A stretch of DNA of 33,956 nt from Ectobacillus funiculus (lineage in GTDB: Bacteria > Bacillota > Bacilli > Bacillales > Bacillaceae_G). The DNA is taken from the NCBI RefSeq assembly GCF_004138295.1, contig NZ_SCFM01000064.1, positions 1-33,956 of the forward strand, given 5' to 3'. This document shows, one piece after another, positions 172 to 28,724 of this stretch; within the stretch, counting starts at the first letter, position 1; every line of letters begins with the position of its first letter. A program made the translations under genes and the position numbers. The notes beneath the pieces were generated by a model that saw only the letters and a list, made by a program, of their open reading frames with translations, was not told the DNA's origin and ran no database searches.

Positions 172-259
172 ATAACTTTTTTATATTTTTTTATTTCCTT
201 TTTAACCCAAGCTTATAGTCTGTAAATCTTAATTAAGAACCACTGAATAGAATTTCTAT

Positions 260-392
260 AAAGAAAACTTGCCAATTGGCGAGTCCTGCCTTTAGGCGAA
301 GACTGTGACGGAGTTGTACTTACACTTTGTTCCTAAAATGTCCGGCTACATCGAACTAGCTTCTAACTGGAAATCTATCCTTTATTACAGTG
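260..392 (+). repeat. Dispersed 134-bp-family repeat, copy A (diverged)
   Basis: This stretch begins AAAGAAAACTTGCC and ends ATTACAGTGC. It aligns end to end with the tandem unit at 14845-15653 but with many substitutions. The first hairpin is weakened (TTGCC-AATT-GGCGAG) and the long-range GGCGTAG/CTACGCC pairing is lost. It directly abuts the terminator of the GH30 operon. Confidence 0.8.
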
Positions 393-7093: not shown

Positions 7094-7139
7094 ATTAGTG
7101 CTTTCATTTGTACTTTTTTAGTTTGTACTTTTTTAGTTT
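7094..7139 (-). promoter_or_regulatory. Operator-like region upstream of locus 1 binding-protein gene
   Basis: The minus strand shows a 15-bp direct repeat CTAAAAAAGTACAAA twice in tandem, then TGAAAGCACTAATA. The A-tract plus GTA and GAAAGCACT elements match the motifs before the other two binding-protein genes (20695-20736 and 26511-26553). The repeat runs into the stop codon of the response-regulator gene. This is a likely target of an AraC-type activator such as that neighbour (inference). Confidence 0.5.
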
Positions 7140-8206
7140 GATCTCATTTCACCTGGAGAGAGCTTGAAATATTTTTTGAAAACACGATAGAAATAAGACA
7201 CATCTTCATATCCGACCATTTGCGCGATGCTCTTAATTTGCAGCTCATTACTAATCAGCAGCTTTCTCGCATGCTCCATGCGATGGCTGATAATATATTC
7301 TGTAATATTGCATCCATACGTATTTTTAAATGCTTTGCTTAAATACTCCTTGCTGACAAAGAACTTGTTCGCTAATATCTCAAGGGAAATATGGGAATCT
7401 GTAAAGTTTCTCTCTATATATTCTTTAATCTCCCCCAAATTCACCCTATTTTTCCTTTTATTCATATGAAGCATATATTCTATAAAGTGTTTTCCCAAAG
7501 TCTGATGCTGCTCAATCATCCGCTCAAGAGACGTTTCTAATCTATCGTATAAACTTTTATTTTCTTCAAAAATATCGTTAACATTATAATTATTTTTCAG
7601 CATTTGCTCTTCTAATATCAGAATGAACTCTTGATGGATTTTGAACAGGGCATTTCTATCAATTCCCTCCATTTTCTTTAACTCTCCATAAAATCGCTGA
7701 TGCGCACTTTCAAATCCTAGTACATTGGCTTCCTGCAAAAAAGATGTGACTGTTTTTTTATATTCTCTAATTAATAATGAAAGATTATGATTCGTAAAAG
7801 AAAAAGGCTGATACGTATAGGAATCCCGCTGACTTTTGATTTCCTTTGTGCATTTTTCTAAAGCAAGATTTAATTCATCTTCATGAATCGGTTTCAATAA
7901 ATATTCATTCACCTTTGAATGGATGGCCTGTCTCATGTAAATGAAATCATTATAGCCGCTCGCTACAATAAGCTGAATATGAGGAAAACGTTCAGTAAGA
8001 GTTTGAAGCAGCTCCATCCCATCCATCCCTGGCATTTTCATGTCAGTAATCACAATATCTGGAGACAGCTTTTCAATAAGCTGTAATCCCTCCTCTCCAT
8101 CACTCGCTTCCCCAATAATTTCAATCCCATACTGCCCCCATCTTCCAAATTGCTTAATAACCTCTCTTGTCCATTTTTCATCATCAACAATTATGGTTTT
8201 GAACAT
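7133..8206 (-). CDS. YesN-type response regulator with AraC-family DNA-binding domain
   Basis: The receiver domain occupies about residues 1-120, with acidic pocket DD8-9, phospho-acceptor D55 in IVITDMKMPG, the threonine/serine switch near VASGYND and Lys in LLKPIHEDE. The middle is a helical region. The C-terminus (about 258-357) is an AraC double helix-turn-helix: SLEILANKFFVSKEYLSKAFK and IKSIAQMVGYEDVSYFYRVFKKYF. GGAGGGG lies 8 bases before the ATG, only 4 bases after the kinase stop. It probably activates the adjacent transporter/glycosidase operon when the kinase senses an external sugar. No yesN symbol is given because the orthologue is unproven. Confidence 0.94.
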   Translation of the reverse strand: MFKTIIVDDEKWTREVIKQFGRWGQYGIEIIGEASDGEEGLQLIEKLSPDIVITDMKMPGMDGMELLQTLTERFPHIQLIVASGYNDFIYMRQAIHSKVNEYLLKPIHEDELNLALEKCTKEIKSQRDSYTYQPFSFTNHNLSLLIREYKKTVTSFLQEANVLGFESAHQRFYGELKKMEGIDRNALFKIHQEFILILEEQMLKNNYNVNDIFEENKSLYDRLETSLERMIEQHQTLGKHFIEYMLHMNKRKNRVNLGEIKEYIERNFTDSHISLEILANKFFVSKEYLSKAFKNTYGCNITEYIISHRMEHARKLLISNELQIKSIAQMVGYEDVSYFYRVFKKYFKLSPGEMRSN

Positions 8207-10056: not shown

Positions 10057-10190
10057 TAAGAAAACTCATCGATTAGCGAGCCCTGCCTTTGGGCGAAGAC
10101 AGAGGCGTAATTGCACTTATACTTTATTCCTAAAATTTCTCACTACGTCGAATTGTCTTCCTGCTAGAAATTTATACTTTCTCAAAGTGT
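10057..10190 (+). repeat. Dispersed 134-bp-family repeat, copy B
   Basis: The full-length copy runs from AAGAAAACTCATCGATTAGCGAG to TTTCTCAAAGTGT, close to the tandem unit. The core GGGCGAAGACAGAGGCGTA is intact, and CACTACGTCGAATTG differs slightly from the array. It sits just upstream of the histidine-kinase gene. Confidence 0.9.
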
Positions 10191-10838: not shown

Positions 10839-11165
10839 ATGAAAGGGAAATTTTTAATAGGTAATCATTCGGTTGTTGAAATGCGGATTAAATATTACAT
10901 GAAGTGCTTATTGGTAGAAACTCCTGAACACGTCATACAATATCTAAACAAACGTTTAAAAACATTTAAATGTATGTTAGAAAATTGCAATATGTATCCA
11001 AGGATTGTGGTAGTATCCGTACAAGATCTTATTAAGGAATATTCTTTAGATGTTATTCGTATTAAAGAATACATAAATAGGAAAAAAGATTATGATTCCC
11101 CGATTCGTACAATTAATGTAGGTTTTAACATCAAAACAGGTATGGAAGGTAATATAAGTTTATAA
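10839..11165 (+). CDS. Small hypothetical protein (108 aa)
   Basis: Unrecognised protein. GGAGGGG stands 6 bases before the ATG, so translation is likely. The product is basic, soluble and rich in Tyr, Lys and Ile, with no signal peptide or membrane segment. Predicted strands (RIVVVSVQDLIKEY) and helices suggest a small alpha/beta fold, which is only an impression. Its stop codon TAA (11163-11165) overlaps the first bases of repeat copy C, so the C-terminus may have been set or truncated by the repeat. No operon partner is visible. Confidence 0.6.
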   Translation: MKGKFLIGNHSVVEMRIKYYMKCLLVETPEHVIQYLNKRLKTFKCMLENCNMYPRIVVVSVQDLIKEYSLDVIRIKEYINRKKDYDSPIRTINVGFNIKTGMEGNISL

Positions 11166-11294
11166 AGAAAATTCGCCGATTCGCGAGCCCCGCTCTTGTT
11201 CGAAGACAGAGGCGTAGCTGCCCTGATACTTTATTCCTAAAATTGCTCGTTACGTCGAACTGTCTGCCAGCTAGAAATTTATACTCTCTGGTGT
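11164..11294 (+). repeat. Dispersed 134-bp-family repeat, copy C
   Basis: The copy runs from AAAGAAAATTCGCCGATTCGCGAG to GGTGT, with the core GAAGACAGAGGCGTAG kept. The first base pair block is altered (TTCGCC-GATT-CGCGAG). It begins inside the stop codon of the preceding small gene. Confidence 0.88.
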
Positions 11295-12750: not shown

Positions 12751-13138
12751 CACAAATTTATACGGCGGGGATATATATGGAGTTGCCAAAGCGGCTGAGC
12801 GTTTCTTTGGATTGAGTCCTGATGAGCTTGATCAATTAACACTAGAACAAGCTGTACTATTAGCAGGAATTCCACAAAGCCCAAATAGATACATGCCAAC
12901 TGTAGAAGCAAACCTTGATAGAGCTGAAAAAAGAAGAAATATGGTTCTTCACTATATGAATAGACACGGATACATTTCAGAATCAGAAATGATTAAAGCA
13001 CAAAGTACACCTATTGAAGATACACTCAATATTCAAATGCCAAAAGCTAATAAATAGTAAGCAGTTGTTAATACAGTTATTAAAGAGGTACAAGAAAAAA
13101 CAGATGCTAACATTTTTGAAAATGGATTAGAAATTTAA
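12713..13138 (+). pseudogene. Class A penicillin-binding protein, transglycosylase-domain fragment
   Basis: From 12713 one frame reads RFSKEQILEMYFNTNLYGG, then YGVAKAAERFFG, LTLEQAVLLAGIPQSPNRYMP and AEKRRNMVLHYMNRHGYIS. These are motifs of the second half of a GT51 transglycosylase domain. After ANK the frame has TAG TAA, then resumes in phase with AVVNTVIKEVQEKTDANIF, the linker to the transpeptidase domain, before another TAA at 13136. The N-terminal membrane anchor, the catalytic glutamate half of GT51 and the whole transpeptidase domain are missing. An internal ATG at 12740 opens 105 codons but has no ribosome site. It is fused out of frame to the AraC remnant. Confidence 0.85.
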
Positions 13139-13262
13139 CCGATTCTCCATGAAGGATTAAAACCATTTGGGGTTTATGGACCACCAAAAGAAGATTGGAT
13201 TCATTTAGGAGTAGAAAATTCACCACTTTAAGAACATCATCTAATACGGGCTTATCTTGAAT
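13139..13262 (+). pseudogene. Unidentified coding debris
   Basis: In the same phase as the PBP fragment the sequence reads FGVYGPPKEDWIHLGVENSP, TAA, then EHHLIRAYLEYNR, TAA. The protein-like composition suggests the wreck of another gene joined to the PBP piece, but I do not recognise the family. Low confidence. Confidence 0.3.
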
Positions 13263-13271
13263 ATAACAGAT

Positions 13272-13388
13272 AAAGCAGACCCACCGATTGGCAAAGACAG
13301 AGGCAAAGTTGCACTTATACTTTGTTCCTAAAATTTATAACTACGTCGAATTGGCTTCCAGCTAGAAATTTATACTTTCTTACATTGT
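13272..13388 (+). repeat. Dispersed 134-bp-family repeat, copy D (second hairpin deleted)
   Basis: CCACCGATTGGC is followed directly by AAAGACAGAGGC, so the ~18-base GAGCCCCGCTCTTGGGCG segment of the array unit is missing. The remainder (GCACTTATACTTTGTTCCTAAAATTT to TTACATTGT) matches the family. Confidence 0.82.
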
Positions 13389-13389
13389 A

Positions 13390-13430
13390 AAGAAAACCCT
13401 CCCTACTTAGCCATAGAAGGGAGGGCTTTT
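13390..13430 (-). terminator. Terminator of the YxjG/YxjH-like gene
   Basis: CCCTCCC (13397-13403) pairs with GGGAGGG (13419-13425). On the minus strand the stem is followed by TTTTCTTT. It is 20 bases downstream of the gene's stop codon. Confidence 0.85.
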
Positions 13431-13451
13431 ACTGCTATTTCAAATCACTGT

Positions 13452-14579
13452 TTAGTTGTTTCCCCATACATCTTCAGCAATTTTAATTACATGTTTTATC
13501 TTATTCCATTGATCTTCTTCCGTTAATTTGTTTCCTTCTTCCGTACTTGCAAATCCGCATTGAGGACTTAATGCTAGGTTTTCTAGAGGAATATATTGAC
13601 TTGCTTCTTTGATTCGCTCTTTAATCAATTCAGGATCCTCTAGTTCAGGGAATTTAGATGTAATTAATCCTAAGATAACTGTTTGGTCATTACGCTTAAA
13701 GCTCTTTAATGGTTCAAAATCACCTGAACGTTGATCATCATATTCTAGGAAGAGTCCATCTACATTTAAGTTAGCAAATATTGCATCAGATATATTGTCG
13801 TACCCGCCACTTGTAATATATGTAGACCTGAAGTTCCCACGACAAATATGCATTGTAATTACCATATCAGCAGGCTTCTTGGAAATAGAATCATTTAAGC
13901 AACGTACTCTAGTATCGATAATGTCTTGTACATCCATGCCGAGTTTTTCAACGACTGCTTGTATACGTTCTTCGGAAACAAAATCAATCCAGGAAGTATC
14001 GTCTAATTGTAAATAACGGCAGCCTGCATCATAGAAAGCCTGAATTGCTTTTTGGTAAGCTGCTACTGTATCATTATAAAACTCCTCTTGGTTGCCGCTA
14101 TAATACTCATCACCTTGAATTCTAGTGAATAACATATTAGGACTTGGAATGGAGAACTTAGCCACTTGGCTTCCATCACCATATTGGTTAACAGCTTCTT
14201 TTAGGAACTTGAAGTGTTCTAGCATATAATGATTATTAAAGCCTACTTTACCAACTACTTTGATTGCCGTATTTTTTGTTTTGGCACCCTTGAAGTTACT
14301 TATATATTCCGTTTCAAACTCAACTATCCCTTCTAAACCTGATAAAAAATCTAAGTGCCACCACGAGCGTCTAAATTCGCCATCCGTGATTGATTTAAGG
14401 CCTACCTCAATTTGTTTTTGCACAAGCTTCGCAATCTCTGTATCCTCTACAGCCTTTAGGGCATCCTTATCGATTTCCTCATTCGCATAAGCTGTTCTTG
14501 CTTCTTTAATAGGCGCCGTTCTTAGAAAGCTTCCTACATGATCGGCTTTAAATGGAGCTTTCACTAGTGTTGTTGTCAT
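13452..14579 (-). CDS. YxjG/YxjH-like MetE C-terminal-domain methyltransferase family protein (375 aa)
   Basis: The protein has the cobalamin-independent methionine synthase (MetE) C-terminal barrel without the N-terminal MetE half. It starts KAPFKADHVGSFLRT, then has SITDGEFRRSWWHLDF, the zinc-ligand type motifs MVITMHICRGNFRS (His/Cys) and LSPQCGFAST (Cys), and LQLDDTSW. This pattern and length match B. subtilis YxjG/YxjH, annotated as putative methionine-cycle methyltransferases; the exact methyl donor is not established here. The ATG at 14579 is preceded by GAAGGAAATTC; codons upstream fall in the riboswitch terminator. The SAM riboswitch upstream ties it to methionine metabolism. Confidence 0.9.
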   Translation of the reverse strand: MTTTLVKAPFKADHVGSFLRTAPIKEARTAYANEEIDKDALKAVEDTEIAKLVQKQIEVGLKSITDGEFRRSWWHLDFLSGLEGIVEFETEYISNFKGAKTKNTAIKVVGKVGFNNHYMLEHFKFLKEAVNQYGDGSQVAKFSIPSPNMLFTRIQGDEYYSGNQEEFYNDTVAAYQKAIQAFYDAGCRYLQLDDTSWIDFVSEERIQAVVEKLGMDVQDIIDTRVRCLNDSISKKPADMVITMHICRGNFRSTYITSGGYDNISDAIFANLNVDGLFLEYDDQRSGDFEPLKSFKRNDQTVILGLITSKFPELEDPELIKERIKEASQYIPLENLALSPQCGFASTEEGNKLTEEDQWNKIKHVIKIAEDVWGNN

Positions 14580-14599
14580 ATTGAATTTCCTTCTTTCTT

Positions 14600-14640
14600 T
14601 AATAATCAAAAAACCCTCTTCTCAAAAATAAGAAGAGGGT
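14600..14640 (-). terminator. Riboswitch-controlled terminator before the YxjG/YxjH-like gene
   Basis: CCCTCTTCT pairs with AGAAGAGGG (14614-14622 and 14631-14639), then TTTTTT on the minus strand. Its 5' arm can instead pair with the 3' arm of aptamer helix P1 (AAGATAAGAAGAG), forming an antiterminator when SAM is absent. Confidence 0.88.
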
Positions 14641-14659
14641 AATTACCGTAATAGGTTCT

Positions 14660-14760
14660 CTTCTTATCTTCAAGCAAATCGCTCCTGGAATTGGCACAGT
14701 ACTTAAATAGTCCGCTGCCGAGGTCTCATAGGGCCAGTCCCTCCACCTCTCAGGATAAGA
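14660..14760 (-). promoter_or_regulatory. SAM-I (S-box) riboswitch aptamer
   Basis: On the minus strand, TCTTATCCTGAGAGGTGGAG, then GGGACTGGCCCTATGA, ACCTCGGCAGC, GTGCCAATTCC and a closing AAGATAAGA reproduce the ordered conserved blocks of the S-box aptamer. P1 pairs TCTTATC with GATAAGA. SAM binding is expected to free the downstream terminator and switch the gene off. Confidence 0.95.
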
Positions 14761-14804
14761 ATATTCAAAAGTATTTAACTAGACAAATATTTAACTTAGT
14801 AATT

Positions 14805-14833
14805 AAACTACACTTGTTTTGTTGCCCTGTCAA
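14805..14833 (-). promoter_or_regulatory. Promoter of the riboswitch transcript
   Basis: TTGACA (14828-14833, minus strand) is separated by 17 bases from TAGTTT (14805-14810). It lies 45 bases upstream of the aptamer. The -35 is perfect and the -10 moderate. Confidence 0.65.
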
Positions 14834-14844
14834 TAAGTTTTTTT

Positions 14845-15653
14845 AAAGAAAACTCGCCGATTGGCGAGCCCCGCTCTTGGGCGAAGACAGAGGCGTAGTT
14901 GCACTTATACTTTATTCCTAAAATTTCTCGCTACGCCGAATGGGCTTCCTGTTAGAAATTTATACTTTCTTAAAGTGTAAAGAAAACTCGCCGATTGGCG
15001 AGCCCCGCTCTTGGGCGAAGACAGAGGCGTAGTTGCACTTATACTTTATTCCTAAAATTTCTCGCTACGCCGAATGGGCTTCCTGTTAGAAATTTATACT
15101 TTCTTAAAGTGTAAAGAAAACTCGCCGATTGGCGAGCCCCGCTCTTGGGCGAAGACAGAGGCGTAGTTGCACTTATACTTTATTCCTAAAATTTCTCGCT
15201 ACGCCGAATGGGCTTCCTGTTAGAAATTTATACTTTCTTAAAGTGTAAAGAAAACTCGCCGATTGGCGAGCCCCGCTCTTGGGCGAAGACAGAGGCGTAG
15301 TTGCACTTATACTTTATTCCTAAAATTTCTCGCTACGCCGAATGGGCTTCCTGTTAGAAATTTATACTTTCTTAAAGTGTAAAGAAAACTCGCCGATTGG
15401 CGAGCCCCGCTCTTGGGCGAAGACAGAGGCGTAGTTGCACTTATACTTTATTCCTAAAATTTCTCGCTACGCCGAATGGGCTTCCTGTTAGAAATTTATA
15501 CTTTCTTAAAGTGTAAAGAAAACTCACCGATTGGCGAGATCCGCCCTTGGGCGAAGACAGAGGAGAGGCGTAGTTGCACTTATACTTTATTCCTAAAATT
15601 TCCGACTACGCCGAATGACCTTCTAGCTGGAAATTTATACTTCCCTACAGTGT
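14845..15653 (+). repeat. Tandem array of 134-bp structured repeat (five identical units plus one diverged)
   Basis: Units start at 14845, 14979, 15113, 15247 and 15381, each exactly 134 bp and identical by eye. A sixth, diverged unit runs 15515-15653 and carries a duplicated GAG (GACAGAGGAGAGGCG). Each unit begins AAAGAAAACTCGCCGATTGG and ends TTTCTTAAAGTGT. Inside are a perfect hairpin CTCGCC-GATT-GGCGAG, a second CGCTCTTGGGCG stem, a long-range pair GGCGTAG/CTACGCC and AAATTTCT/AGAAATTT. There are no spacers, so it is not CRISPR, and no open frame longer than a few dozen codons. Confidence 0.95.
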
Positions 15654-15688
15654 AAAAAAGTAATCCTTTAAGCATTTTATAGGGAAAT

Positions 15689-17260
15689 TTACAAATTATA
15701 TTTTCGAATCAAATAAGTCGGCGTACAGCTCCACGCATGGCAGTAGCTATTAATCAAATAACTGCCGTACGGTGAAAAGTCTTTATTATTAGGGTCATAT
15801 AATTCCCAGAACGTATCTGCACCGTCATGGATCATTTCACCCCAGTACGCTTTTAGCTGTTCAACTGCCTTTTCTTTTTCGCCTACTATAATAAGTGCTT
15901 CCACTAAGTAATGGTACATATACGGTGTTGTGAGGACAATCTCAGGTTTCTCTGACAATAGACGGTTCATAAGCTGACGATTTTCCTCTGGCTCTAGTAC
16001 CTCCGCCAATGCCATCCAAATCTGGCTTGCCCACGAAATTTGTTTTTCTGCTCCGCTTACGAAAAAGCCTTTTTCTTCGTCCCATAGATGGGTAATCGTT
16101 GCCGTTACAATCTCCTGCAGACGCTCTTCTAAGAAAGCCTGCTTGTCGCTGCCCAACACCTTTGCCATTTCAATTGCCCGCTTGATTGCATGAATAAGCA
16201 CAGCCTGCGAAGGAGCTTGCTTGTTTAATTCCTGGTGCCAATCAATAAATGACCACCACGATTTATCATCCTTTACAATATTGTGCTCATCTAATCGTTC
16301 TAATGCGAGCTCAATTTGACGATAAGCACTAGGCCATAGCTCCACTAGCGTCTCTTTGTCGTTCGTTGCAAAGTAATAGTCATGCAATGTTGTTGAAAAT
16401 AGCAGTGAATAGTCAAATAAGTATATGTCATCTGGAATTAATGATGGCGCAATAAATACATTTGCCATAATTTTTCCTCTATCATCCGGCACACCTGCAA
16501 ATAAATATAAGCAGCGTTTTACTAAATCATTATTTTGGAATGTCTCGTAATTTGCTAATGCCTGAAGCCGTAAATCGCCGAGCCATAAACGACGGTCGCG
16601 CTTCGGTCCATCCTCAAATACATCCTGCATGCAATCCTGCAGCGTTTTAATGCTCACCTGATCAATCTGAGCCAGCAACGAATCCTTATGCTGAAGTGGA
16701 ATAACACGGGATGGATCAGCCGATGTCACTGTTTGGCATTGGATATCATCGAATGCGACACGATATTTTCGCGATGTATCCAACACTTCAAATTTAATAT
16801 AACGGAAGCTATAACGGCGTGGTAATTCGATACGAGCTGGCAGCACATCCACATAAATCGTTTCTTCCTGCAGCCATGAACTGCTTAACCAACCGTCATA
16901 TTCTGAAAATGGCTCTGCCATTTCAACTGGCATTTCACCGAATGTTAATTTAAGACTAAGAGGTGCATCAGGCGGACTGCCAACCGGTCTAATTTTCATG
17001 GATACATAGCCAACCTGGTGCGTACCAAAATCAAGGATAAATTCATCGCCCTTACCATAGGACTGTCCTGCTTGGGGTTCAATGGCTTGCGCTCGCCAGC
17101 CATGGATAACGGCTGGATCCGCTACTACCTCTACAAAGTTTTGCGGCATTACCGTTTCTCTTACTAGCTCTGGCTTTAATTGTTCAGACTTTGCGATAAA
17201 GTCTTCATTACGATCAATTACCAAATCATTGATTATTTGAGTTTGTGCTTCGTTTGCCAT
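15689..17260 (-). CDS. GH78-like alpha-L-rhamnosidase, short form (523 aa)
   Basis: The protein has a beta-sandwich N-terminal part (EFILDFGTHQVGYVSMKI) and a six-hairpin (alpha/alpha)6 catalytic domain. The catalytic signature EDGPKRDRRLWLGD (residues 216-229) matches the DGPxRD..W.GD general-acid motif of GH78. The end DTFWELYD...INSYCHAWSCTPTYLI is the usual glutamate/histidine region. At 523 residues it lacks the extra N-terminal domains of 900-residue GH78 enzymes but appears complete. GGGGAGGAATACTT precedes the ATG. It is the last gene of the second transporter operon and probably removes terminal rhamnose from imported oligosaccharides in the cytoplasm. Confidence 0.85.
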   Translation of the reverse strand: MANEAQTQIINDLVIDRNEDFIAKSEQLKPELVRETVMPQNFVEVVADPAVIHGWRAQAIEPQAGQSYGKGDEFILDFGTHQVGYVSMKIRPVGSPPDAPLSLKLTFGEMPVEMAEPFSEYDGWLSSSWLQEETIYVDVLPARIELPRRYSFRYIKFEVLDTSRKYRVAFDDIQCQTVTSADPSRVIPLQHKDSLLAQIDQVSIKTLQDCMQDVFEDGPKRDRRLWLGDLRLQALANYETFQNNDLVKRCLYLFAGVPDDRGKIMANVFIAPSLIPDDIYLFDYSLLFSTTLHDYYFATNDKETLVELWPSAYRQIELALERLDEHNIVKDDKSWWSFIDWHQELNKQAPSQAVLIHAIKRAIEMAKVLGSDKQAFLEERLQEIVTATITHLWDEEKGFFVSGAEKQISWASQIWMALAEVLEPEENRQLMNRLLSEKPEIVLTTPYMYHYLVEALIIVGEKEKAVEQLKAYWGEMIHDGADTFWELYDPNNKDFSPYGSYLINSYCHAWSCTPTYLIRKYNL

Positions 17261-26556: not shown

Positions 26557-28329
26557 TTATGTCTGTTCTTTTTTGATAATGAAATCCTTTGGCGTAGCGC
26601 CTACAAAGCTATTTTCTTTTGCATCAAGAGCTAACCAATCGCCAAAATGGAAGCCTTTATCCCAAAGATATTCATTTTTCCCCTGTCTGCGAATATATTC
26701 TACCCATGCTTTCATACTATCTTATTGCTCAGCAAGTAAACGTTTGTCTCCGTAAGTTTGATATACTGTCCACGGAATAATAGTTGCTGCATCGCCCCAA
26801 GCCGCTGAGCCAGCCCCGCTCACAACAGATGGAATCACAATTGGAACACAGCCATCTGGAAGCTGTTCTGCCTTCAAATCACGGAGCCACTTTGTAAAAA
26901 ATGGTCCCCCATGATAATTAAATAGAGCCGTCTGAATAAAGACCTGGGCATCTCCTGTCCATCCCAGCCTTTCATTCCGCTGCGGGCAGTCGGTCGGCAG
27001 GTCAAGGAAGTTCCCTCTTTGTCCCCAAACAATATTGCGCTGCAGCTGATTCACTAATGGATCCGAACACTCAAATTCACCTGCTGGCTCCATATCTGAA
27101 TGAATAACTTCACCTACAAAGTTTTCTAGCGGTAATCCGTTTTCTTGTCCAGGATATCCCTCTACCTTTACATATCGGAAGCCTTGGAATGTGAAATGCG
27201 GCGCATATGTTTCAATACCTTCCCCTTTTGCGGTATATTCAATCGTTTGCTTCGCCTTTCCAAGATTCCCAAAATAAATATTGCCGTCCTTATCCAGTAC
27301 CTCTGCATGCTTCAAAACAATTCGTGCACCCTTTGGAGCATTCACCTTAAATTTCATTCGGCCTACCATGTTTTGCCCCATATCTAAAACAGTGTCCCCT
27401 GCAGGAGTCACAAATGAAGCAATTGGTTGAATCACTTCTGTAACCCGCGTTGGCCAGTTTTCCTGGGCAACTAAATTGGTAAATGGCAAATCTTGAACCA
27501 TTGTTTCTTTCCAGCTGCTGTCATCGAAACCGGAACGGCTCCAACCAGCTTTTTCAAGTCTGGCATCATAGGTTTCGCCATCATAAATTTCTGAATATAA
27601 AATAGGGCCAGTAGATGCCTTCCATGTATGATCCGTTACAATGATTTCTTCTGACCCATCATCATACTTTACATAAAGCTGAAATAAGGCGGCCCGTCTA
27701 TCACCATACACATGGCGTTTATTTTCAAAGCTAAGAGTTCCCTTATACCAGCCATCCCCCAGCACAGTCCCAAGTATGTTTGCACCTTCGCTTAATTGCT
27801 CCGTTATATCATACGTCTGATATTGCAGGCGATGATGATAGCTCGTCCAGCCAGGAGAAAGCAAATCAGCCCCTACCCGTTCTCCGTTAAGGAATAGTTC
27901 GTAGAGACCAACTCCAGTCCCATAAATACGGGCTGAAGTAATGCCCGTTTTAAGTTTAAATTCTTTCCTTAATAGGAATGCAGGCTCAGAGAGAGGATCA
28001 ATACCTTCCGGTTCGGGTGTAATCCATTGTGCCTTCCACTCTGTATGATCTAACAAGCCAGTTTCCCACCAAACCGTACTACTCCATGATGATTCACGCT
28101 CAAAATTGTCCCAAACTTTTACGCGGTAAAAATATCTTGTTCGAGGCGTTACATCCGGGCCGCCATATTCGATCTGAATCGATTCTCCTGAACGAACCAT
28201 TCCCGTATCCCATAATATATTTGTAAAATCATCACAACCTGCTGATACTTGAATCTGGTAAGCCTTTTGCATCGTTCCCCGTTGGTCTGATTGAATTTTC
28301 CAACTGATACGCGGTTCTTTTATATCAAT
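26557..28329 (-). pseudogene. GH78 alpha-L-rhamnosidase, truncated at both ends with a nonsense codon
   Basis: From about 28329 the frame reads LGIDIKEPRISWKIQSDQRG, then MQKAYQIQVSAGCDDF and onward through the Fn3-like, jelly-roll and beta domains to the catalytic motif DCPQRNERLGWTGDAQVF. The true N-terminus (about 15-20 residues) is missing and replaced by a repeat fragment. At 26722 a TAA stands where a residue (often Tyr) is expected; the same frame continues DSMKAWVEYIRRQGKNEYLW and HFGDWLALDAKENSFVGATP, then loses homology at KDFI. The last third, about 350 residues including the rest of the barrel and the C-terminal domain, is deleted. A 516-codon open stretch (26722-28272) survives but lacks the full active site. 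Confidence 0.9.
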
Positions 28330-28374
28330 TCCCAGCTAGAAATGAATTCGACATAGCAGGAAATTTTAGGAATA
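28329..28374 (-). repeat. Partial 134-bp-family repeat, copy E (reverse orientation)
   Basis: The minus strand reads ATTCCTAAAATTTCCTGCTA, then GTCGAATTCATTTCTAGCTGG. This corresponds to the TTCCTAAAATTTCTCGCTACGCCGAAT...TAGAAAT part of the unit, and TTCTAGCTGG is as in the array's sixth copy. It fills exactly the space between the GH1 and GH78 remnants and is the only copy on the minus strand. Confidence 0.7.
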
Positions 28375-28379
28375 CAGCT

Positions 28380-28724
28380 TATCCTCTATCTAGTACTAGT
28401 GCATTCATTTGAGCGATGCGCCCTAGATAACGCGCGCTTTCCTTCACTTTCCGTTCCTGTGTGGACCGATCAACCCCGATAAGACCAAATTGCATAGAAT
28501 AGCCTGAATTCCATTCGAAATTATCGAAGGTGGACTAATGTAAATAGCCTCTAATAACAATCTCCCTTCATCTAGACAAGCTTGTACGCCCTCTAGGCCT
28601 CTGCATGCTCCTCTGCCCAGAAATCACTGTTCACATTATTACCTTCAACTTGGTGTCCCGCTTTCGCCGAACCCCAAAGAAAATCTGCTGGAAAATTAAA
28701 TTGCACTTGAAATACTCCTTCCAT
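28380..28724 (-). pseudogene. GH1 beta-glucosidase-type gene, internally deleted remnant
   Basis: From ATG 28724 the frame reads FNFPADFLWGSAKAGHQVEG and NNVNSDFWAEE, the GH1 N-terminus, and stops soon after. After a shift the sequence continues (ACLDEGR...) DNFEWNSGYSMQFGLIGVDR and STQERKVKESARYLGRIAQM, the GH1 C-terminus, to TAA at 28380. About 350 central residues, including both catalytic glutamates (NEP and ENG motifs), are gone. A perfect cre site stands upstream. Confidence 0.88.

Follow-up and report, generated by a model that had tools for sequence, protein, structure and literature searches.

What has placed five identical non-coding units and a diverged sixth side by side between two genes of Ectobacillus funiculus? 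The window analysed here, a 33,956-bp contig that makes up one part of a 146-contig draft assembly, carries a tandem array at 14844-15656 with a period of 134, 6.0 copies, 97% matches and a score of 1474 (TRF). The first-pass annotation described five identical units beside a diverged one, single and diverged copies elsewhere in the window, and a glycosidase gene and a riboswitch gene as neighbours, and each of these observations stands (Table 1). As assembled, units 1 to 5 show no difference from one another, and unit 6 departs from them at 16 of 132 model columns and by a 5-nt insertion (about 85% identity by BLAST); it also differs at both diagnostic columns used. Four of the other copies lie on the plus strand and one, which is partial, on the minus strand. 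Read along the minus strand, the end of a GH78 rhamnosidase gene (15689) is followed by a T-tract, the array, a SAM riboswitch and the MetE-like gene that the riboswitch precedes. As argued below, the unit is very probably a mobile repeat that seeks terminators and recreates its own target.

Table 1. Repeat copies and neighbouring features in the window, in order of position.
Feature	Position	Strand	Description
Dispersed copy	259..389	+	
Dispersed copy	10057..10187	+	
Dispersed copy	11163..11289	+	
Dispersed copy	13271..13382	+	Internally shortened; directly behind a strong hairpin (-17.5) downstream of the MetE-like gene
SAM riboswitch	14661..14761	-	RF00162, 83.4 bits; neighbour, belongs to the next downstream minus-strand gene (MetE-like)
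Unit 1	14844..14977	+	TAAAG...AGTG, 134 bp, outer end of the array; element ends set by empty sites in another genus
Unit 1, minus-strand 3' end	14844..14868	-	Hairpin CTCGCC-AATC-GGCGAG, then TTTTCTTTA; terminator-like
Unit 2	14978..15111	+	Same as unit 1, no difference
Unit 3	15112..15245	+	Same as unit 1, no difference
Unit 4	15246..15379	+	Same as unit 1, no difference
Unit 5	15380..15513	+	Same as unit 1, no difference
Unit 6	15514..15652	+	Older, apparently independent insertion of another subfamily; adjoins the original target
Target T-tract	15653..15659	-	TTTTTTA on the minus strand; unit 6 lies directly behind it
GH78 alpha-L-rhamnosidase gene	15689..17260	-	Neighbour; ends just ahead of the array's target
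Partial copy	28323..28380	-	

The surrounding DNA has features of its own. Between 460 and 28272 the window is rich in sugar-use genes, among them GH30, GH42, several GH78 rhamnosidases, ABC sugar transporters and a two-component system. One GH78-type frame at 26722-28272 (minus strand) stops at position 123 of the 339 in the catalytic-domain model and looks truncated or frame-broken; the partial repeat copy lies just upstream of it. A 15-bp short tandem repeat is present in 2.3 copies at 7107-7140.

The repeat is a large family. A search of the unit against its own genome and relatives, which the first-pass annotation had recommended, found many copies elsewhere, with 938 first-look candidates in the own genome, of which 40 were scored, and at least 71 matches listed. 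To describe the family, 80 stretches of 20 kb and the window were sampled (1,633,956 bp in total; 15 of the first 20 stretches were picked around known hits). A profile search of this sample gave 325 hits in 259 clusters, 36 of which hold more than one copy. The first 20 stretches contributed 107 hits, the 60 stretches taken regardless of hits 207 (172.5 per Mb) and the window 11; by extrapolation from the 60 unbiased stretches, the genome is estimated to hold approximately 940 copies in its 5.45 Mb. The family is intergenic, with only 7 of the 259 clusters lying more than half inside an open reading frame of at least 90 aa.

Beyond its own genome, the element is patchily distributed among related genomes. 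Matches were found in 20 of the 40 genomes searched (own included), in 9 of 25 genera, and the three other species of the window's genus gave no match at E<=1e-3. A 42-nt core is matched exactly in 15 stretches from Cytobacillus, Gottfriedia, Fredinandcohnia and Bacillus sp. records. A plasmid search returned one copy, on a 250-kb plasmid labelled Arthrobacter citreus with the same coordinates as G015:C2 (G-numbers denote genomes, G000 being the window's own, and L-numbers loci), and a phage search returned no match to the element. No Rfam family matches the unit at the gathering threshold; at a relaxed threshold the array region gave sR53 only, with an E of 0.66 or worse. Another dispersed family, whose copies are about 155 bp long (TAAAGAAAAGCGGACAAGG...TTATACTTTCTTATCTTG) and have similar ends but a different interior, has 21 hits in the 1.63 Mb, and in eight clear cases one of its copies directly abuts the start of a copy of the first family (L040, L169, L180, L146, L176, L175, L192 and L179).

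Copies of the element are about 125-139 bp long and have well-defined ends. Read in plus orientation, the unit starts with TAAAGAAAACTC after a left flank of near-random sequence; the right end reads ...CTTTCTTA[A/C]AGTG and is followed by an A-tract. On the minus strand, the order is therefore T-tract, element and random flank. The third-last base of the target is T in 99% of cases and the second-last in 80%, with a T-rich tract ahead of them, and the flank at the other end is near random. Hairpins at the junctions were scored with a simple measure of our own (threshold 9) in those 149 of the 259 clusters whose two ends are complete and whose flanks are long enough. A hairpin immediately precedes the T-tract at the minus-strand 5' junction in 74 of 149 clusters, compared with 94 of 2000 T-matched random positions and 1 of 149 at the other junction; the remaining 75 have no scored hairpin beside the T-tract. 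At the window array, only a weak fold (energy -2.0) lies ahead of the T-tract. A generic terminator scan of 13000-16200 was uninformative, with three sites, one of them the unit 6 hairpin, against a mean of 2.9 in shuffles.

The far end of the element resembles this target. Its terminal hairpin and tail have a folding energy of -13.2 kcal/mol (z -3.65), and in the window they recur in units 2 to 6, with one changed stem base in unit 6.

The precision of insertion can be judged from sites that lack the element. Within the window's own genus, species give no usable synteny (for the MetE-like gene, two of the three other species give matches of no more than 24-25%, and the rhamnosidase gene has no match), and empty sites were consequently taken from another genus. 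The joined, element-free flanks of 11 copies in G013 and G015 were used to search 13 congeneric genomes, from which 30 loci were retrieved. Among these loci, 8 of the 11 sites have at least one continuous match (27 alignments in total), and L241, L250 and L258 have none. By reading of the alignments, removal of TAAAG...AGTG restores the empty sequence exactly in 17 of the 27, at six of the eight sites (L245, L246, L247, L252, L257 and L260). The other 10 alignments, including all three at L256 and the only one at L242, show small gaps or longer differences near the junction. The exact junctions indicate that the mobile unit is TAAAG...AGTG, inserted without duplication or loss of target sequence. 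At six of the eight empty sites, a hairpin is already present behind the junction (by eye; L260 is less clear than the other five), and the terminator is therefore older than the element.

The L252 site (L264, L265, L271, L272, L274, L277, L278 and L291-L294), which has no clear hairpin, is filled in five genomes and lacks the element in seven. Five of the empty alleles are within one base of the joined flanks and two have 11 and 14 extra nt; orthology is clear for the copies in G013, G010 and G011. This pattern of presence and absence disagrees with a one-locus tree of ten of the genomes, and could result either from precise loss or from exchange between strains. Precise excision is not claimed, as flank haplotypes suggest exchange.

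If the end of the element resembles its target, new copies should land behind old ones, and the clusters behave in this way. There are 28 two-copy clusters, 22 of them with near-full members, and in 20 of these 22 the outer (TAAAG-side) copy is nearer the consensus (p 1.2e-4). Members of a pair are mostly not duplicates of each other: their identity falls below the 95th percentile of random pairs in 20 of 22 comparable pairs, and in 20 of 22 each of the two is matched equally well or better by another copy in the sample (the exceptions being L046 at 15389 and the 3' member of L179). Thus, a new copy has usually been inserted behind an old one. The first-pass annotation read the window array as a very recent expansion beside an older unit, which is retained; a divergence of units 1-5 and unit 6 after a single duplication is not, as the young and old units appear to have been inserted separately.

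Larger arrays appear to have a further source of growth. The sample contains eight arrays of at least three units, the window's included, several with graded or chimeric units, and the interior units of the larger arrays are identical. At L043 and L159, an interior unit joins the 5' part of its inner neighbour to the 3' part of its outer one, with one private base each, and an interior unit at L157 shows the same pattern but for one column. Such chimeras are what unequal crossing-over predicts, and they support later growth of the large arrays by unequal recombination, as the first-pass annotation had supposed for the window. The window array and L203 show no chimeric pattern. In the window, interior units equal to the first unit fit unequal recombination without proving it; L203 was initially considered a chimera and then dropped, since its interior units resemble the outer one apart from four changes.

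The orientation of the element also follows replication. Cluster strand was scored where the GC skew of the locus was at least 0.06 either way (225 clusters), and the plus strand of the element lies on the G-poor strand in 196 of these. Genes favour the G-rich strand (992 of 1250), and part of the element's bias therefore reflects gene orientation; the classes in which the flanking genes disagree in direction are exempt from this effect. There, the bias persists in 69 of 81 clusters (p 7e-11), both between convergent genes (41 of 49) and between divergent ones (28 of 32). The count is 111 of 113 for two genes opposed to the element and 16 of 31 for two genes in its direction. GC skew is an established marker of leading and lagging strands. 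A G-poor plus strand consequently puts the minus strand, with its hairpin and T-tract, on the side of the lagging-strand template.

Taken together, these observations lead to the following model. The element is inserted with precise ends immediately 3' of a T-tract on its minus strand, preferably that of an intrinsic terminator. Its far end, consisting of its own hairpin and TTTTCTTTA, resembles the target, so that copies stack with the oldest nearest the original target, and large arrays probably grew later by unequal recombination. Movement would take place in the form of single-stranded DNA, with the lagging-strand template as both source and destination and the terminator hairpin exposed on the single strand, and an HUH-type enzyme would act in trans, as in IS200/IS605. 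The absence of a target duplication, the one-sided fixed target, the subterminal hairpin and the replication bias all fit single-strand movement by an HUH enzyme; the model as a whole, with a non-autonomous element moved in this way, is a reading to which we give slightly under an even chance, and its core, a terminator-seeking mobile repeat that recreates its target, is held to be very probable.

The search for a driver bears on this part of the model. The window's own genome has no intact Y1 transposase (PF01797), only two broken fragments, and a Y1 search of the copy-rich G015 and G010 gave no hit. Y1 loci fetched from relatives are not flanked by element ends; the only element matches among the fetched Y1 loci are at L070 and, weakly, at L093, and the L070 copy, although close to a broken Y1 gene, seems to be no more than an old copy of the usual kind, located behind a terminator. 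A Y2_Tnp search found no match, though its control likewise matched nowhere. TnpB has 13 matches in the own genome; 11 span most of the domain, and three of these 11 are in frames of at most 113 aa. Searching eight TnpB loci (L311-L318) with the element profile gave a partial copy at L312, 24 matching nt at L317 and no match at E<=1 in the other six; the four readable TnpB ends (L311, L312, L313 and L318) are unlike those of the element. A candidate autonomous parent at L043, where terminal pieces are separated by a 1,064-bp gap (the sole such pair in 1.63 Mb), was rejected, as the pieces overlap in the model and are taken to be two truncated copies; the gap contains a gene that we take to be EcsC-like. 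The moving enzyme may have been lost, or may lie outside the families tested.

Two other routes, both through RNA, could also carry a short sequence to a terminator. In the one, an RNA form would be joined into DNA behind terminator hairpins by a group IIC intron protein acting in trans. Bacterial-C introns insert right behind terminators, according to passages of PMC8919778, and the group II introns of relatives (Rfam) start directly behind a hairpin and T-tract at five of eight loci by eye (L119, L120, L121, L123 and L124). The precise, duplication-free insertion of the element agrees with such a route, and reverse transcriptases are found in 16 of the 20 genomes with the element and 5 of the 20 without it. 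However, the relatedness of these 40 genomes means that the co-occurrence is no independent evidence; the reverse transcriptases are of mixed types, some of the five proteins compared being nearer to defence enzymes; and G013 has at least 22 element matches and no reverse transcriptase hit. Moreover, the two group II introns of the own genome (frames of 568 and 621 aa) show no sign of class C, judged by size and Rfam model, and the element itself matches no group II model (in the window, and at relaxed threshold in the array), and its length of about 130 nt leaves no room for a ribozyme core. The route is therefore considered unlikely. The other, a SINE-like retroposon whose plus-strand RNA is copied from its 3' end with T-tract priming, would leave 5'-truncated copies, and among 323 hits away from stretch ends, 54 do lack the plus-strand 5' end compared with 21 lacking the 3' end (5 lack both and 243 neither). 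Divergence in copies missing over 20 nt is close to that in full ones (0.0747 vs 0.0668, p 0.078) and is higher in the 15 copies missing 6-20 nt (0.1047), and the A-tract after the 3' end would also suit a retroposon. Yet empty sites show neither target duplication nor deletion, orthologous copies have acquired internal deletions after insertion, and the asymmetry of end loss could reflect selection against deletions that reach the host terminator, all of which makes a retroposon decidedly improbable.

A different kind of explanation is that the host keeps the element for a job, as a terminator booster, an insulator, a structured RNA or a protein-binding array. Sequence and structure are conserved across genera, each unit has a terminator-like hairpin, and the copies keep to intergenic DNA. 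The description of the unit as structured in the first-pass annotation was partly borne out. Single-strand folding of one unit is weak (z -1.30 and -0.87), and the support comes from the terminal hairpin and from a set of helices (hairpin H1, A, B and C, with A crossing B and C) that was chosen after inspection of the data, so that the test is not blind. Across 44 copies from several genera, 87.9% of cells are paired, compared with 84.2% in shuffles and 31-44% when slid, and double-change cells number 52 against 22.7 in shuffles; pairs with a double change (11 vs 7.8, reached by 30 of 500 shuffles) are less telling. Within the genome, in contrast, pairing among the 325 copies is at chance for H1 (458 vs 457 expected weighted cells) and A (457 vs 453), and covaries at a few positions in B (803 vs 757) and C (446 vs 424). 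We read this as active masters under constraint whose copies drift, an argument against every copy serving the host, as are the patchy presence between relatives and the lack of matches in the three congeneric species. The counts of G-T against A-C pairs, which at first favoured a plus-strand RNA, were set aside: A and C point in one direction and B in the opposite one, H1 is roughly even, and across the 325 copies pairing in neither H1 nor A departs from chance. IS200/IS605 elements have subterminal hairpins at both ends with guide tetranucleotides; here, the end opposite the terminal hairpin has only a weak hairpin by eye, and an inner segment may pair with the junction in a guide-like manner through helix C, which is suggestive. 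A retained host role is thus very improbable, and the functions proposed in the first-pass annotation (structured RNA, protein-binding array or recombination hot spot) none of them quite fit a repeat that behaves as a terminator-targeting mobile element. Finally, the run of five identical units could in part be an artefact of assembly, given that short reads struggle with identical 134-bp units and the draft has 146 contigs. Against this, the sample holds eight arrays of at least three units, several of them graded or chimeric, and neither the family nor its stacking depends on the exact number of units; the chance of an artefact appears slim.

The terminator-seeking mobile repeat shares traits with several known systems. 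IS200/IS605 elements, a family treated in PMC6006769, lack a target duplication and have a subterminal hairpin, a short one-sided target and a bias towards the lagging-strand template. The present element shares these traits, with a strong hairpin at one end, but its genome contains no intact Y1 gene, and it prefers a terminator hairpin ahead of its target. REP sequences are 21-65 nt long and are intergenic, abundant and clustered. The last three properties are shared by the element; unlike REPs and BIMEs, it is a 134-bp unit with no GTAG or GTGG foot beside its hairpin (by eye), and where REPs have a RAYT gene, its genome has no intact gene of the Y1 type. Group IIC introns resemble it in their position directly behind a terminator hairpin and T-tract, and differ in that the element starts with CACTTTAAG rather than GTGCG, has no group II match and no open reading frame, and is far smaller; no class-C intron was recognised in the own genome. 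Like classical MITEs, the element is short, non-coding and present in high copy number, but it has no target site duplication and, by eye, no perfect terminal inverted repeats.

The nearest described repeats are bcr1-bcr3. According to PMC6542083 and PMC3446304, bcr1-bcr18 are intergenic, MITE-like, high-copy repeats of 100 to 400 bp in the B. cereus group, the mobility of bcr1-bcr3 is linked to a TTTAT motif, and bcr1 has 11-130 copies per strain, compared with several hundred copies of the element here. The element may prove to be a wider branch of that kind. In the literature searched, mostly outside subscription journals, no report of a terminator-seeking short repeat was found. A more tentative possibility is that the repeat belongs to an undescribed mobile class that seeks terminators, rebuilds one at its far end and stacks directionally, moved by a novel enzyme or by borrowing from group IIC introns, and comprising at least two families with similar ends.

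For the biology of these genomes, terminator-side insertion that leaves a terminator-like end as the next target offers a testable rule for how many hundreds of copies can accumulate without damage to genes. The same rule explains arrays in which the oldest copy sits at one fixed end, and needs no host function to do so. It also carries a caution, since apparent repeat expansions in draft genomes may mix independent insertions with later recombination. More broadly, the family points to an unidentified mobility system in Bacillaceae.
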